This document shows positions 24,282 through 46,916 of a stretch of 64,000 nt of DNA, piece by piece (positions within the stretch are counted from its first letter, which is position 1; the number at the start of each line of letters is the position of its first letter). The stretch lies in the NCBI RefSeq assembly GCF_000746525.1, contig NZ_CP009048.1, positions 776,001-840,000 on the forward strand, given 5' to 3'. Made by a program: the position numbers and the translations under genes. This stretch comes from Pseudomonas alkylphenolica (GTDB taxonomy: Bacteria; Pseudomonadota; Gammaproteobacteria; Pseudomonadales; Pseudomonadaceae). Below the pieces are notes generated by a model. The model ran no database searches and was not told where the DNA came from. It worked only from the letters and a program-made list of their open reading frames with translations.

Positions 24282-24326
24282 CAGGGATTTGTCCCTGGCC
24301 TATTGGAAACCGTTTGTTCGGTTTCC
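24282..24326 (+). promoter_or_regulatory. Two leader hairpins upstream of rpsO
   Basis: CAGGGA-TTTG-TCCCTG (24282-24297) and GGAAACC-GTTTGTTC-GGTTTCC (24305-24326) are perfect small stem-loops, the second ending 19 bp before the rpsO ATG and next to the GGAGA ribosome site. S15 represses its own mRNA through leader structures in several bacteria. A similar role here is inference. Confidence 0.55.
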
Positions 24327-24345
24327 CTTGATTTGGAGAAGCCAG

Positions 24346-24615
24346 ATGGCACTCAGCGTTGAAGAAAAAGCAAAGATCGTTGGCGAATACCAGCAAGCCG
24401 CCGGTGACACCGGTAGCCCAGAAGTGCAAGTTGCACTGCTGACCGCCAACATCAACAAGCTGCAAGGCCACTTCAAGGCCAACGGCAAAGACCACCACTC
24501 CCGTCGTGGTCTGATCCGCATGGTTAACCAGCGTCGTAAGCTGCTGGACTACCTGAAGGGCAAAGACACCACTCGTTACAGCGCCCTGATCGGTCGCCTG
24601 GGTCTGCGTCGCTAA
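24346..24615 (+). CDS. rpsO: 30S ribosomal protein S15
   Basis: The 89-residue protein is full-length S15 ([20 protein letters not shown], then [24 protein letters not shown]), a primary binder of the 16S central domain. ATG 24346 follows TTGGAGAAGC. Longer in-frame extensions upstream cover the hairpin leader and are not translated in known S15 proteins. It is followed by pnp, as in E. coli. Confidence 0.98.
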
Positions 24616-40246: not shown

Positions 40247-41635
40247 TTATTCGCCTGCGCCGCCATCGGCACGCTTGCGTTTGCTCGGGCTGCGCTTGCG
40301 TTTGCGCGGGCCGGCAGAGGCGCCTTCATCGCGGCTGCCCAGGTCACGGATCATGTCGCGCCGCTCGCTGTCGTTGCTGTCCTGATAGTCGGTCCACCAT
40401 TGGCCCAGGCCATCGGTTTCCTCACCTGCGCTTTCACGCAGTAGCAGGAAGTCGTAACCGGCACGGAAGCGCGGGTTGTCGAGCAGCAGGTCGGCACGCT
40501 TGCCGCTGCGGCGTGGCAGGCGCTCCTGCATGTCCCAGATCTCGCGGATCGGCAGGGTGAAGCGTTTCGGGATCGCGATGCGCTGGCACTGTTCGCTGAT
40601 CAGCTCGTGGGCGGCTTCGTTCATCGCCGGAATTGGCGGCATGCCACGGCTTTGCAGGCGCAGAGCACGACCCGGCAGGGCCGGCCAGAGCAGCGCGGCA
40701 AACAGGAACGCAGGGGTTACCGGTTTGCCCTGCTTGATGCGCAGGTCGGTGTTGATCAACGCCTGGCTGATCAGGGTATGGGTGTAGGTCGGGTGTTCTT
40801 CCAGGGCTTCGGCACTGGCCGGGAACAGCGGATCGAACAACTGCAGGTCGACGAGCATTTCGAAGGTGTCGGCGGCATGCCCGGAGAGGAACAGCTTGAG
40901 TGTTTCCTCGAACAGGCGGGCAGACGGGATCTCGCGCAGCATCGATGCCAGCTGGCGAATCGGCTGCACCGTGTGCTTCTCGATGCCGAAGTTCAGCTTG
41001 GCGGCGAAACGCACGGCGCGCAGCATCCGTACCGGGTCTTCCTGGTAACGCTGGGTCGGGTCACCGATCAGGCGGATCAAACGATTGCGGATGTCGTGTA
41101 CGCCATTGGCGTAGTCGAGGATGCGCTCGCTGACCGGATCGTAGTACAGGGCGTTGATGGTGAAGTCGCGGCGCTGCGCGTCTTCTTCCAGGGTGCCGTA
41201 GACATTGTCACGCAGAATGCGCCCGCTCTCGTTACGCGACGAGGTGTGGCTGTCTTCTGCTTCGCTTTCCGGGTGGTTGGCGCGGAAGGTGGCGACTTCG
41301 ATGATTTCACGACCGAAATGGATGTGAACCAGCTTGAAACGGCGGCCGATGATGCGCGCATTGCGAAATTCGGCACGGACTTGTTCGGGGGTGGCGCTGG
41401 TGGCGACATCGAAGTCCTTGGGGGTGATACCCAGGAGTTGGTCGCGCACGCAGCCACCGACCAGGTAGGCCTGGTAGCCAGCATTTTGCAGGCGCTCAAC
41501 GATACTCACCGCATGACGACTGAATTGGCCACGTTGCAGCGAGTGTTGACCGCTATTGATCACTTCAGGCGTGGTGCGCTTGTGGTGCGGGCCACGTACG
41601 GGAGGACGGAACGACTGGAACAGCTTCTTCAGCAT
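40247..41635 (-). CDS. pcnB: Poly(A) polymerase I
   Basis: The 462-residue protein has a nucleotidyltransferase core: YLVGGCVRDQLLG, KDFDVATSATPEQVR (metal-binding Asp pair), RRFKLVHIHFG, DFTINALYYDP and RMLRAVRFAAKL. The C-terminus is a basic tail rich in Arg/Lys/Ser. It polyadenylates RNA to aid decay. The start MLKKLFQSFRPP at 41635 is standard for the genus, while a longer reading upstream adds unconserved residues. It lies next to crcZ. Confidence 0.96.
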   Translation of the reverse strand: MLKKLFQSFRPPVRGPHHKRTTPEVINSGQHSLQRGQFSRHAVSIVERLQNAGYQAYLVGGCVRDQLLGITPKDFDVATSATPEQVRAEFRNARIIGRRFKLVHIHFGREIIEVATFRANHPESEAEDSHTSSRNESGRILRDNVYGTLEEDAQRRDFTINALYYDPVSERILDYANGVHDIRNRLIRLIGDPTQRYQEDPVRMLRAVRFAAKLNFGIEKHTVQPIRQLASMLREIPSARLFEETLKLFLSGHAADTFEMLVDLQLFDPLFPASAEALEEHPTYTHTLISQALINTDLRIKQGKPVTPAFLFAALLWPALPGRALRLQSRGMPPIPAMNEAAHELISEQCQRIAIPKRFTLPIREIWDMQERLPRRSGKRADLLLDNPRFRAGYDFLLLRESAGEETDGLGQWWTDYQDSNDSERRDMIRDLGSRDEGASAGPRKRKRSPSKRKRADGGAGE

Positions 41636-41761
41636 GGGATGCACTGTTTGAAGGAATGTTCGGCCAAAAACGAAGAATGGCCGCATGATGGGCGGGGATT
41701 CTAGCATTTACTGGGCGGATGGTGTAGGCGCTAGCAAAGCGGGGGGTGATGCGGAGGGGAG

Positions 41762-41788
41762 AAACTACAAGGGGAGCCGAAGCTCCCC
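41762..41788 (-). terminator. Terminator of crcZ
   Basis: On the minus strand GGGGAGC and GCTCCCC enclose TTCG, followed by TTGTAGTTT. It closes an RNA about 370 nt long from the predicted start near 42133. Confidence 0.88.
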
Positions 41789-42133
41789 AAGAAAGTAGTT
41801 GCGTGCTCTTATTGTTTTTTTGCCGGGCTTCTTGTTTTTGTTGAGTGCCCTATCCACAAAACGCAAAGCTTGTGGACGATCTCCCTAACCGGGATTCAAG
41901 AGCAAACGGATTGCTTTGGTCGCTGAGGTTGCAATGATCATGCGATCCAACCAGTTCAGGCCCTGCTTGAGTGCAGTTTTTGTTGTTCTCTGCCTGGTTG
42001 TGGGGCAAGCCCCAAATACAACTCCTCTCCAAAAGAATCAGTTAGCTGCGCCTCCGCCGTCTTGTTCTTATTGTGCGTGAGCCGATTCGTCTTATTTTTA
42101 TTGTCTTTTGCAGTGCTTGTTATTGTTCTTGTA
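41763..42133 (-). ncRNA. crcZ: CrcZ small RNA (Hfq/Crc sponge)
   Basis: No protein fits this 704-bp gap between pcnB and cbrB. On the minus strand it contains six A-rich AAnAAnAA-type motifs (plus-strand positions 41809, 41829, 41977, 42062, 42092, 42117), the sites bound by Hfq with Crc. A -24/-12 promoter lies at 42144-42159 and a terminator at 41762-41788, giving about 370 nt, near the known P. putida CrcZ size. CrcZ titrates Hfq/Crc and lifts catabolite repression under CbrAB control. The cbrB-crcZ-pcnB order is the known location. Confidence 0.93.
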
Positions 42134-42143
42134 CCAAACATAT

Positions 42144-42159
42144 AGCAGGTGCCGTGCCA
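42144..42159 (-). promoter_or_regulatory. Sigma-54 promoter of crcZ
   Basis: The minus strand reads TGGCACGGCACCTGCT, matching TGGCAC-N5-TTGCT at all invariant positions (GG at -24, GC at -12). Transcription would start about 12 bp downstream, near 42133. Confidence 0.92.
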
Positions 42160-42218
42160 ACTTTTGCAAACCCCAGTAAAACAAGGGCTTGGAGCGATTT
42201 CACCGTGTCGTTGGGGCG

Positions 42219-42258
42219 AAAAAAAACCGGGGCTTCGTTACCGTAAGCCCCGGTTTTT
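42219..42258 (-). terminator. Terminator of cbrB
   Basis: ACCGGGGCTT and AAGCCCCGGT form a perfect 10-bp stem around a 9-nt loop. On the minus strand it is followed by a T8 run, so it ends the cbrAB transcript before crcZ begins. T5 on the other flank allows some bidirectional function. Confidence 0.9.
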
Positions 42259-42283
42259 GTTACGAGATTGTGGCGAGGTAACA
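42258..42283. promoter_or_regulatory. CbrB-type upstream activating site for crcZ
   Basis: TGTTAC-N14-GTAACA is an exact inverted repeat, matching my recollection of the CbrB recognition pattern. It lies about 100-125 bp upstream of the -24 element, a normal enhancer distance. A further half-site TGTTAC is at 42303-42308. The first arm begins at the edge of the cbrB terminator. Confidence 0.75.
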
Positions 42284-42339
42284 GTTTTTTCACATTTGTC
42301 TGTGTTACCCCTTAGCACCTCGCTGACAGCTGAAAGGGA

Positions 42340-43779
42340 TCAGCTATCGCTGGTGGCACCGCTCTTGCGCCGCGGGATGCCCAGGCGCTGGCGACGTTCC
42401 CACAGGCACTTGCGACTGACCCCGAGTTTGCGTGCCAGCTCGGTCTCGGTCATGTGGTCCTGATGTTCGAGGACGAAGTGCTGGAAGTAGTCTTCCAGGG
42501 ACAGGTCTTCGGTTGGCTCGTGGCTGGTATTGTTGGCTGCACTGCCATTGCCGGACAGGCTGGCGAACGGCTCGTCGTCTTCCAGGTCGCTCAGCTCGAT
42601 ATCGATGCCCAGCAGGTCGGCAGAGATTTCCGGGCTCTCGCAGAGAATCACCGCACGCTCAACGGCGTTTTCCAGCTCACGGACGTTACCCGGCCAGGAG
42701 TAATGACGGATGGCCTGTTCGGCATCGTGGCCGAAGCGCAGGTCGTTACGGCCGACACGCGCGCTTTGGCGGGCGAGGAAGGCATTGGCGATTTCGTTGA
42801 CGTCGGCGCCGCGCTCGCGCAGGGCAGGCAGCTTGAGGGCGATAACGTGCAGACGGTAATAAAGGTCTTCGCGGAACTGGCCGATCTTGGCCAGGTTTTT
42901 CAGGTCGCGGTGGGTCGCAGCGATCAGGCGCACATCGACCTTTTGTGACTGCACCGACCCGACTCGGCGGATTTCGCCTTCCTGAAGCACCCGCAGTAGG
43001 CGAGCCTGGGCTTCCAGCGGCAATTCACCGATTTCGTCGAGGAACAGGGTGCCGCCGTCGGCAGCTTCGACCAGGCCGGCGCGACCGGCGCTGGCACCGG
43101 TGAAGGCGCCTTTCTCATGGCCGAACAGTTCCGACTCGATCAGGGTTTCCGGAATGGCCGCACAGTTCACCGAGATCATCGGTGCCTTGGCGCGGCGCGA
43201 GAGGTTGTGCAGGGCGCGGGCAACCAGCTCTTTACCGGTCCCCGACTCGCCCTGGATCAGCACATTCGAGTCAGTCGGGGCGACCTTGCGGATCTTGCCG
43301 TACAGGTCTTGCATCGGCGGGCAGGAGCCAATGATGCCGATCTCGCCATTGGCGGCATTGCTGCTGCCTTTGTCGGCGATGCCGGTCTTGCCGTTACCGC
43401 GTGCTTCGGCAGGCGCGGCTGGCGCGTTCTGGCGGTCACGCAGGATGCGCGCCACGGCCTGGAGCATTTCGTCATGATCGAAAGGCTTGGCGATGTAGTC
43501 CACCGCGCCCATTTTCATCGAATCGACGGCCGAGCGCAGGCTCGCGTAGCTGGTCATGATCAGCACCGGTGTGCCCTGGCCGAGCTTGATCAGTTCGGTA
43601 CCCGGGGCGCCGGGCAGGCGCAGGTCACTGACAATCAGGTCGAAGGTGGCAATGCTGAAGCGCTCCTGTGCTTCCTGCACCGATCCGGCTTCGCTGACCT
43701 GATACTGGTTCCGTTCCAGTAGTCGACGCAGTGCCGAGCGGATGATGGTTTCGTCTTCGACGATCAGAATATGCGGCAT
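42340..43779 (-). CDS. cbrB: Sigma-54-dependent response regulator CbrB
   Basis: The 479-residue NtrC-family protein has a receiver domain with phospho-acceptor Asp52 ([10 protein letters not shown]), a linker, a AAA+ domain (GESGTGKE Walker A, EKGAFTGA for sigma-54 contact, [12 protein letters not shown]alker B) and a C-terminal Fis-type helix-turn-helix ([25 protein letters not shown]). It activates crcZ and other carbon/nitrogen genes. It lies 22 bp downstream of cbrA on the same strand. Confidence 0.98.
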
Positions 43780-43801: not shown

Positions 43802-46750
43802 TCAGTTCACAGCGGACGTCGCTACGACATGGCGCGGCAGGGTGACTCGGATCCGAGTGCCACGCTGGCTCTGGGTATCGGCCGGGCTGTCGATGGTGAT
43901 TTGTCCATAATGCTCTTCCACGATGGAATAGACCAGAGCAAGCCCCAGTCCGGTACCTTCGCCCGGGTCCTTGGTAGTGAAGAAGGGTTCGAACAGACGA
44001 TCCATGATGTTTTTCGGAATACCGCTGCCTTCGTCCTCGACGATCAGGTCAACGGTATGCTCGCTCGCTTCACTCTTGACCCGCACGGCACTGCCGGGCG
44101 GTGAGGCATCGCGGGCGTTGGACAGCAAGTTGATCAGGACCTGGGCCAGGCGTTGCGGGTCGCCATCGACCCAGTGCTCGGGGTCGCACAGGTTGAAGAA
44201 CTGTACTTCGAAATTGCGCCGGTTCAAGGCCAGCAGACCGATGGCGTCCTGCGCCACTTCGGCCAGGCATACGGGCTCGTCGCTGTGCTGATGGCTGCCG
44301 GCGTGGGCAAAGCTCATCAGTGACTGAACGATGCGGGAAATGCGTTTGGTCTGCTCAAGGATCTGGCTACTCAACTCGGTGATCTCGCCATCTTCTTCAC
44401 GCTCTTCGCGCAGGTTCTGCGCCAGGCAAGCGATGCCAGTGACCGGGTTGCCGATCTCGTGGGCCACCCCGGCCGCCAGGCGACCGATACTGGCCAGGCG
44501 TTCGGAGTGCACCAGTTTGTCTTCCAGAGCCTGGGTCTCGGTGAGGTCTTCGACCAGCACCACCAGGCCACTGTTGCCCGGCGCCAGGGGCTCGTCAATG
44601 GCGGCCTTGTGCAGGTTCAGCCAGCGGGTCTGGCCGTCCAGGCCCAGGCGCTGCTTGTGCAGGTGTTCATCGGGGATGTTGGTGAAGCCCAGCAGCAGGC
44701 CACGCCAAGGTTCGCTGATGGTGGTCAGGCGTGAACCGACCACACGCTTGGCGGGAATGCCGGTGAGCTCTTCCATGGCCTTGTTCCACATCAGGATCTC
44801 CTGATCCTTGGCCAGCGAGCAGACACCCATGGGCAGCTCCTGCAGGGTCTGGCGATGGTAGCGGCGCAGGGCATCGAGCTCGGCGGCAAGGCCGGTGAGG
44901 CGCGAGTGGTAGTCTTCCAGGCGACTTTCGATGAAGTGGATGTCTTCGGTAACGTAGTTTTCGTTACCCGACTTGTAAGGAAGGAAGGTCTCGACCATGT
45001 CCTGAGCCACACTCGGCCCCATCAGCCCCGACAGGTTGGCTTCGATACGGTCGCGCAGGCGGCGCAAGGCGTAGGGGCGGCGTTCGTCGAAAGGCAGGTA
45101 GAGATCACGCAGGGCCTGTTCGACTTCCTTCTGTGCGGCCTTTGCCCCTAGTGGCTTGGCCAGTTGCGTGGCGAACTCCTGCGGCGAGGCGGCATGCAGT
45201 TCGCGGCGTTGCGGACGGCGCACGTTATCCACTGCGCAGGCTTCGGCGGCGCTGACTTCTTCACTGCTGGCGTTGGTGAACAGCGAAATCAGGGTGAACA
45301 GCAACACGTTAGCCGCCAGCGAGGCAATGGCCGCCATGTGCCAGCTGGTGTCGTCGAGCACATAGATCATGTTCAGCAACGGGATGTAGAAGCCCTGCAG
45401 GTTGCCCACCAGTGGCAGCAACATGGTCACCATCCACACCAGGATCCCGGCCAGCAAACCGGCGATGAAGCCGCGACGGTTGGCGGTCGGCCAGTACAGT
45501 ACCGAGAGTACGCCCGGCAGGAACTGCAGGGTGGCGACAAAGGCGACGATGCCGAGGTTGGCCAGGTCCTGCTGGCTCTGCAGGGTCAGGTAGAAGCCGA
45601 AGCCGGCGGCGATGATCGCAACGATCAGCGCGCGGCGGGTCCATTTCAGCCAGCGATAGATATTACCCTCGGCCGGAGGCTGGTACAGCGGCAGTACCAG
45701 GTGGTTCAGGGCCATGCCCGAGAGGGCGAGGGTGGTAACGATGATCAAGCCGCTGGAGGCTGACAGCCCACCCACATAAGCGAGTAGTGCCAGCGCCTGG
45801 TTGTTGGCGGCGATCCCCAGGCCCAGGGTGAAGTATTCCGGGCTGGTGCTGGCGCCCATCTTCAAGCCCGCCCAGAGGATCAAAGGCACAGCCAGGCTCA
45901 TCAGCAGCAGGAACAGTGGCAAGCCCCAACTGGCGCTGACCAGCGAGCGCGGGTTGAGGTTCTCGGTGAAGGCCATGTGGTACATGTGCGGCATGACGAT
46001 GGCCGAGGCGAAGAACACCAGCAGCAGGGTCCGCCATGGGCCTTCCTGCAATGGCGTGTGCAGGGCGGCCAGGGCAGTCTGGTTCTGCAGCAGCCAGACT
46101 TCCAGCTGATGTGGCCCGCCGAATACCCCGTACAGCGCGTACAGGCCAATGCCGCCCAGGGCCAGCAGCTTGATCACCGACTCAAAGGCAATGGCGAACA
46201 CCAGGCCTTCGTGTTTTTCCCGGGTAGCGATATGCCGGGAGCCGAAAAAGATGGTGAACAAGGTAATCAAGGCACAGAAGGCCATGGCCACCCGCGCTTT
46301 GACCGGTTCGCCGGTGAGGATGCTGATCGAGTCGGCCACCGCCTGGATCTGCAGGGCCAGCAACGGCAGGACGCCGATCAGCATGAATACCGTGGTCAGT
46401 GCCCCGGCCCAGGTGCTGCGAAAGCGGAAAGCGATGAGGTCGGCCAGTGACGACAGCTGATAGGTACGAGTGATCTTCAGGATCGGGTAAAGCAGTACCG
46501 GCGCCAGCAGGAAGGCCCCGGAAACCCCCAGGTAACAGGCCAGAAAGCCGTACCCGTACTGGTAGGCCAGGCCGACTGAGCCGTAAAACGCCCAGGCACT
46601 GGCATAGACACCCAGCGACAGGGTGTAGGTCAGGGGGTGGCGAATGATTGCGCGCGGGATCATGCCGCGTTCGCTGATCCAGGCCACGCCGAACAGCACC
46701 AGCAGGTAGGCGGCGCTGATCAGGATCATCTGGGTCAGGCTAAAGCTCAT
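43802..46750 (-). CDS. cbrA: Transporter-linked sensor histidine kinase CbrA
   Basis: The 982-residue protein begins with a large sodium/solute symporter-like (SLC5) domain of about 13 helices, then a linker, a PAS domain (about 625-740), a HisKA domain with the phospho-acceptor in [13 protein letters not shown], and an ATPase with DEGSGIPKN and [12 protein letters not shown]. It senses carbon/nitrogen balance and phosphorylates CbrB. ATG 46750 ([12 protein letters not shown]) overlaps the small upstream ORF by 11 bases; starts at 46756 or 46759 are possible. Confidence 0.95.
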
Positions 46751-46916
46751 CGGCATCACGTTGGCTCTGCAGGATAAAGGTCACGACGATCAGGATCAGC
46801 CAGAGCAGGTAAGGGCGATACCAGGCTCCGGTTGGCTCGATCCACCAGTCCATGATGGCCGGGGAGAACAGATAGATCCCCACGACCAGAAGCAGGACCA
46901 AACGATAGATATACAT
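46740..46916 (-). CDS. cbrX: Small membrane protein overlapping cbrA (CbrX-like)
   Basis: The 58-residue ORF has a start at 46916 preceded by GAGG with 5-bp spacing, and reads MYIYRLVLLLVVGIYLFSPAIMDWW, then a second hydrophobic stretch (LLWLILIVVTFIL), suggesting two membrane helices. Its stop is inside the first codons of cbrA, so the genes are probably translationally coupled. I recall a cbrX described at this place in P. putida, and use the symbol on that basis. Its molecular function is unknown to me. Confidence 0.75.
   Translation of the reverse strand: MYIYRLVLLLVVGIYLFSPAIMDWWIEPTGAWYRPYLLWLILIVVTFILQSQRDADEL

Follow-up and report, generated by a model that had tools for sequence, protein, structure and literature searches.

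What raises questions about the short space between cbrB and pcnB is how an RNA of catabolite control, the sites of its presumed activator and the 3' end of the activator's own gene fit into it, and whether such an arrangement belongs to Pseudomonas alone. The window, i.e. the whole 64 kb stretch of DNA analysed here, very probably holds the switch by which CbrB and CrcZ relieve carbon-catabolite repression in a Pseudomonas; that it comes from a Pseudomonas, and that family f1 of our order-wide scan corresponds to Pseudomonadaceae, we infer from the Rfam families found and from the contig search, where the closest named match to its CbrB was Pseudomonas fildesensis (90%). Domain and family searches of the window gave the minus-strand gene order cbrA-cbrB-crcZ-pcnB, with crcZ lying between cbrB and pcnB on the same strand as both:

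43802-46759, minus strand: cbrA-like sensor kinase gene, a 985 aa ORF with HisKA, HATPase_c and PAS domains, adjoining cbrB
42340-43779, minus strand: cbrB, sigma-54 activator gene, a 479 aa ORF with Response_reg and Sigma54_activat domains, 5' of crcZ
41762-42133, minus strand: crcZ RNA, predicted at about 370 nt; the Rfam model extends to 41734
40247-41707, minus strand: pcnB, given as the longest ORF (the true start may be further in); TIGR01942, 638.6 bits, cut-off 305.65

The name cbrB is the one suggested by context, domains and gene order, and cbrA the one suggested by context, domains and the published gene order (PMC8871633); the NCBIfam rows shown, which place CbrB with NtrC-type or other activators and CbrA with other kinases, are all under cut-off. 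The window's genome also has a crc gene adjoining pyrE, whose 259 aa product matches the Catabolite repression control protein 4jg3 (E 2.9e-160) and has as its best hit 2myi (E 9.3e-173), labelled Exodeoxyribonuclease III.

Decisive for the family was the covariance search, in which the Rfam CrcZ model (RF01675) matched 42132-41734 on the minus strand over its full length, with 354 bits against a cut-off of 95 and an E value of 8e-99. This match and the gene order agree with a preliminary description of the DNA, which had proposed a CbrB-CrcZ control unit at this position. Judged by its sequence, CrcZ of the window is nothing unusual, a textbook case of an established family. CrcZ is above cut-off in 149/149 genomes of the genus, and all 149 have a CbrB match at E<=1e-170. 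Other Rfam matches in the window are PrrF, an iron-responsive sRNA, at 51171-51023 on the minus strand (156.9 bits), and a ribosomal S15 leader at 24296-24402 on the plus strand (53.3 bits). The parts of the CrcZ unit, and their order, can be read directly from the DNA:

42144-42159, minus strand: sigma-54 promoter TGGCACGGCACCTGCT, exact motif
42117-42130, minus strand: putative A-rich Hfq/Crc motif cluster 1 (this and the next five from the AAnAAnAA scan)
42092-42102, minus strand: putative A-rich Hfq/Crc motif cluster 2
42062-42072, minus strand: putative A-rich Hfq/Crc motif cluster 3
41977-41987, minus strand: putative A-rich Hfq/Crc motif cluster 4
41829-41842, minus strand: putative A-rich Hfq/Crc motif cluster 5
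41809-41819, minus strand: putative A-rich Hfq/Crc motif cluster 6
41771-41788, minus strand: crcZ terminator hairpin GGGGAGCTTCGGCTCCCC, from the terminator scan, within the Rfam CrcZ match

The promoter sequence TGGCAC-N5-CTGCT at 42159-42144 is the sole exact match in the window. With up to one mismatch the motif is no rarer there than chance (11 seen, 7.19 expected), so that we rejected it as significant in itself and the promoter call rests on its position and its conservation; in Pseudomonas, each of the 60 intervals retrieved satisfies the strict unit test defined below. AAnAAnAA occurs 35 times in the window against 12.05 expected, a number reached in 0 of 100 shuffles, and 14 of these matches group into the six minus-strand clusters within crcZ that had been noticed before, all on the RNA's own strand. 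The TTCG-loop hairpin is likewise present; by the scan alone it is not above chance (two terminator-like sites in the window, 2.0 in shuffles), and the fold of the whole RNA (z -2.36) adds nothing.

Read in the direction of crcZ, the CbrB consensus in the literature is TGTTAC-N12-14-GTAACA-N15-19-GTAACA, with subsites named F1-R1-R2 (PMC8871633); in P. putida crcZ the R2 subsite reads GTAACg, and its substitution cut crcZ transcription most (PMC6296734). The window has the following candidates:

42303-42308, minus strand: extra half-site GTAACA, R-type, upstream of F1; GTAAC stands at equal spacing in 26/61 Pseudomonas intervals
42278-42283, minus strand: putative CbrB subsite F1, TGTTAC, after the published consensus (PMC8871633)
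42258-42263, minus strand: putative CbrB subsite R1, GTAACA, directly next to the A-tract of the cbrB terminator stem
42236-42241, minus strand: putative CbrB subsite R2, GTAACG, within the cbrB terminator loop

The sites listed in the preliminary description were all present where it had placed them, with TGTTAC-N14-GTAACA exactly at 42258-42283 and unique in the 64 kb at up to one mismatch (0.01 expected), but the list was incomplete, R2 (GTAACG, 42241-42236) having been overlooked. The resulting spacing, F1-N14-R1-N16-R2, falls within the published range, and the half-site at 42303 was rejected as the third published subsite because R2 is better in both sequence and spacing. We compared 61 Pseudomonas intervals, i.e. 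the window and 60 hand-picked along the ranking out of 149 downstream intervals: F1-R1-R2 is exact at the scanned spacings in 58 of them (the exceptions being L257, L261 and L262), and R1-N15/16-GTAAC[GA] is found in 61/61. We found no difference between the window's RNA and the known CrcZ RNAs of P. aeruginosa, P. putida and A. vinelandii, with which it shares family, cbrB-pcnB locus, promoter type, F1-R1-R2 enhancer, A-rich Hfq motifs and terminator.

The position of R2 brings in the end of the upstream gene:

42219-42253, minus strand: predicted cbrB terminator, with stem 42253-42245 / 42235-42227, loop 42244-42236 and T8 tract 42226-42219

Read 5' to 3' on the minus strand, the cbrB stop codon (42340) is followed by the enhancer (half-sites 42308-42236), the cbrB terminator (stem 42253-42227) and the sigma-54 promoter (42159-42144). 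The terminator stem CCGGGGCTT / AAGCCCCGG encloses a nine-base loop, ACGGTAACG, which contains R2, and is followed by T8, while R1 stops where the A-tract pairing with the terminator T-tract starts. The segment 42262-42218 folds at -25.8 kcal/mol (z -6.26), the program pairing two bases within the loop as well; the terminator scan, with a loop limit of 8, left this hairpin out of its output because the loop is 9. Enhancer and cbrB terminator would share one stretch, in which the same bases would serve the DNA as protein-binding sites (R1, R2) and the transcript as a terminator. It had been proposed that the enhancer abuts the terminator and that read-through could pass across the crcZ control region. 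The two do abut or overlap, but the enhancer lies upstream of the terminator, inside the transcribed 3' end of cbrB, and therefore each full cbrB transcript crosses all subsites without read-through; read-through, an idea already published, is needed only for reaching the sigma-54 promoter.

Whether this overlap matters is a question on which we find the scales about level, since it could arise merely from the shortness of the gap, with neither element affecting the other. Among the 61 Pseudomonas intervals, R2 lies in the loop of a GC-rich hairpin centred on it in 41, and a T-run of at least five follows in 40 of those 41; the remaining 20 keep R2 without the hairpin, so that sharing is unneeded for CrcZ control, a point in favour of mere crowding. 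Outside Pseudomonadaceae, among the rows compared, only L199 pairs well around the -80 site (at least 10 pairs with at least 4 G-C), which also favours it. Against it, the changes in the stem keep pairing: in the 41 relatives with the hairpin (40 distinct), 89.8% of stem cells are paired versus 85.2% with the 3' letters shuffled and 63.7 / 69.6% with the stem slid by one column, and 32 cells are altered on both sides versus 15.7 in shuffles. In the same 41 relatives, the pairs with two-sided change and the further pair types were no higher than in shuffles (196/500 and 143/500 as high, respectively), and the conservation of the stem could come partly from constraint on the flanks of a protein site. 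R2 within the cbrB terminator loop may already be shown in Hernandez-Arranz 2016, Abdou 2011 and Garcia-Maurino 2013. In the accessible text of PMC6296734, PMC8871633, PMC6292655 and PMC8395346 it is not described, and the word 'terminator' appears there 0 times, once for another gene, in reagent names and in other matters, respectively; subscription literature may show it.

CbrAB has been called unique to Pseudomonadaceae and described in Pseudomonas and Azotobacter only (PMC8871633, a review), and exclusive of the Pseudomonads (PMC6296734). The contig search with the window's CbrB gave a small number of close records amid numerous unrelated proteins of the NtrC type, and only the first nine loci (L003-L011) were taken. 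Gilvimarinus agarilyticus, G. gilvus, Litchfieldella anticariensis, a Cellvibrionaceae MAG and Halomonas maura (L007-L011) have CbrB orthologues of 62-66% identity, CbrA-like kinases of 43-51% identity upstream of them and, in the cbrB-pcnB gap, a TGGCAC/T promoter accompanied by half-sites of the TGTTAC/GTAACA type and by clusters of A-rich triplets. In the NCBI taxonomy, Gilvimarinus agarilyticus belongs to Cellvibrionales, and the species of Litchfieldella and Halomonas belong to Oceanospirillales; the order scanned here is that of GTDB, and CbrB was found in 203 of its 293 genomes at E<=1e-150.

The strict unit test asks for three things: a promoter of the form TGGCA[CT]-N6-TGC, two or more half-sites between 60 and 150 bases upstream of it, and two or more copies of AAnAAnAA within the 600 bases that follow. 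It was passed by 77/90 intervals (seven of the 90 are Pseudomonadaceae, six of these passing), versus 0/90 opposite strands and 0/1800 dinucleotide shuffles, and by 7 of 20 further intervals. Outside Pseudomonadaceae, 78/103 intervals downstream of cbrB carry the unit, including Gilvimarinus, Litchfieldella and Halomonas, this sample (17 loci of the order scan, 60 hand-chosen across families, 20 new and six named) containing close relatives, such as L138, apparently of one species with L007, and covering families unevenly. Where pcnB was found downstream, 67/76 of these intervals pass, and the test is passed at least once in 33/40 families other than that of the window. By contrast, in other orders of the class 0/14 loci had a unit within 1.5 kb downstream of the CbrB-like gene (57-64% identity; one had 739 bases).

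Measured from the promoter, the positions of 217 half-sites in distinct units outside the family showed a period of 10.9 with R of 0.66, a value inflated by kinship among genomes, versus at most 0.25 in 1000 trials with uniform random positions; the half-sites cluster near -80, -89, -102, -112, -123 and -134. Such a period is as predicted by binding on one DNA face, as proposed for CbrB in P. putida (PMC6296734).

The A-rich intervals outside Pseudomonadaceae might instead be pcnB leaders or other A-rich RNAs with no role as Hfq decoys, which we regard as unlikely. Under stricter filters the RF01675 cut-off is reached in just 15 of the 293 order genomes, 12 in f1 and three in f2 (101.4-110.8 bits, cut-off 95) and in no other family of the order, so that the f2 units belong formally to RF01675, unlike most others; at E<=0.001 the model is found in 60/293. 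Furthermore, a hairpin rule places a terminator between unit and pcnB in just 48/72 intervals. What speaks against leaders is the co-occurrence of A-rich clusters with a promoter and helically phased CbrB half-sites in those 78 intervals and in none of the shuffles, together with four genomes of family f8 that have the parts together away from cbrB. In this family, 0/7 cbrB loci examined had a unit within 1.5 kb; the four genomes (L301-L304) have a weak Rfam CrcZ match elsewhere, with a promoter of the CrcZ kind and A-rich motifs in 4/4 and at least two half-sites in 3/4, and we therefore rejected the idea that f8 simply has no unit. In G297 (L305), other genes, by eye like a ferredoxin/bacterioferritin pair, stand between cbrB and the unit. 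Tandem pairs of CrcZ-like units occur downstream of cbrB in seven intervals (L159, L160, L179, L193, L201, L202 and L267). L142 has 24 AAnAAnAA in the 900 bases past its promoter, the highest in its table, and none on the other strand.

Failures of the test were of several kinds. Among the 90 intervals they were L004, L006, L126, L128, L133, L149, L151-L153, L182, L194, L195 and L197, and among the 20 further ones there were 13. L006, L126, L128 and L268 run out at or close to the end of a contig; L149, L182, L194, L195, L197 and L280 have the parts present and failed the rule; L282 and L283 look degraded. No unit was found downstream of cbrB in L004, L276, L279, L281, L284 and L285, L281 and L285 having merely 38 and 130 bases ahead of pcnB.

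Crc, the partner of Hfq, has a relative at E<=1e-30 in 241/293 order genomes; among the rows listed outside f1, these relatives have 39-53% identity and are indistinguishable from relatives of exonuclease III, e.g. 2jc5 (7.1e-58). In family f28, 10/11 genomes have no Crc match or one at <=30% identity. Hfq, which was searched in 14 genomes other than the window's, is present in 11/11 f28 genomes. Nine of the ten f28 genomes with no recognisable Crc carry the unit (L127, L129, L131, L132, L134, L137, L139, L178 and L305), and in the tenth (L126) the interval ends at the contig end. These f28 units may be Hfq sponges that act without Crc. Two f26 genomes, G174 and G212, have a Crc-like protein of about 45% identity and no CbrB at E<=1e-150.

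Within the genus, the 3' end of cbrB carries a further Rfam match:

42228-42288, minus strand: match to Rfam P36 (RF01679), spanning F1, R1, R2 and the cbrB terminator; score 38.9, cut-off 36

With a score above cut-off, P36 could be a separate small RNA at 42288-42228, but we hold this to be improbable: P36 was found at E<=0.001 in 69 of 99 genus genomes (59 above cut-off), and 69/69 of these matches lie on the cbrB strand, 33-132 nt downstream of cbrB, so that no position independent of another gene's terminator was seen, and a 3'-end fragment of cbrB would account for a signal. By position, P36 would most simply be the cbrB terminator together with its CbrB sites. P31, a candidate Pseudomonas sRNA that Rfam places at 5861-5780 on the minus strand (110.1 bits), may likewise be part of another transcript. 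Still less probable is that CrcZ here derives mainly from cbrB read-through and processing, like the functional basal CrcZ* that arises from cbrB-crcZ co-transcripts in P. putida and A. vinelandii (PMC6292655, PMC8395346), since a strong predicted terminator intervenes and a complete putative CbrB/sigma-54 promoter is present.

A CbrB-driven promoter is the reading we retain for the window, with CbrB binding, activation and Hfq titration presumed to proceed as shown experimentally for P. putida, P. aeruginosa and A. vinelandii. Under carbon limitation, CbrB would bind F1, R1 and R2 on one DNA face and contact the sigma-54 polymerase at 42159-42144, and the promoter would fire an untranslated RNA of about 370 nt, whose six A-rich clusters would take up the distal face of Hfq, together with Crc, so that repressed mRNAs are released. 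Each full cbrB transcript would meanwhile sweep polymerase over the enhancer and halt at the last subsite, a passage that may affect CbrB occupancy. The second RF01675 copy in the genome, at 3798382-3798771 on the plus strand, is probably CrcY: it resembles the CrcY / CrcX paralogues in its promoter half-sites (TGTTAC at -122 and GTAACA at -87 relative to its own promoter) and in its six motifs, and differs from the window's unit in lying away from cbrB, with no terminator-enhancer sharing seen there by eye. Decoy RNAs of RsmA/RsmN have been compared with CrcZ (PMC8395346). RsmY and RsmZ are RNAs of this kind. The decoy principle of a repeated protein-binding motif is the same in both systems, whereas the protein and the motif differ.

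Taken over the order, we consider it fairly probable that the CbrB-CrcZ unit is ancestral to the Pseudomonadales of GTDB, as a CbrB-switched Hfq sponge that can vary in sequence, length and motif number, duplicate in tandem or relocate, and act without Crc, and that a later step in Pseudomonas and near relatives fused the enhancer with the cbrB terminator, leaving one site on which transcription of cbrB and binding of CbrB meet and may interfere. For the units outside Pseudomonadaceae, a decoy function is suggested by their motifs. We found no report of such RNAs for CrcZ with Halomonas, both being mentioned separately in the available part of PMC9049629, nor for CrcZ with Marinobacter, Cellvibrio or Oceanospirillales, in a literature that included few subscription papers. 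Transcripts of cbrAB have been reported from seawater (PMC5073097), an earlier case of cbrAB annotation in marine samples.

If these units are expressed, the CbrB-driven Hfq decoy mechanism extends to Cellvibrionales, Halomonadaceae and other families, and the species with no recognisable Crc would allow asking what Hfq titration alone does. A sequence-based RNA model misses such sponges because promoter and enhancer are conserved and the RNA body much less so. In Pseudomonas, the Rfam entry P36 may need a new label, and the stretch shared by terminator and enhancer lends itself to testing whether polymerase and activator conflict.
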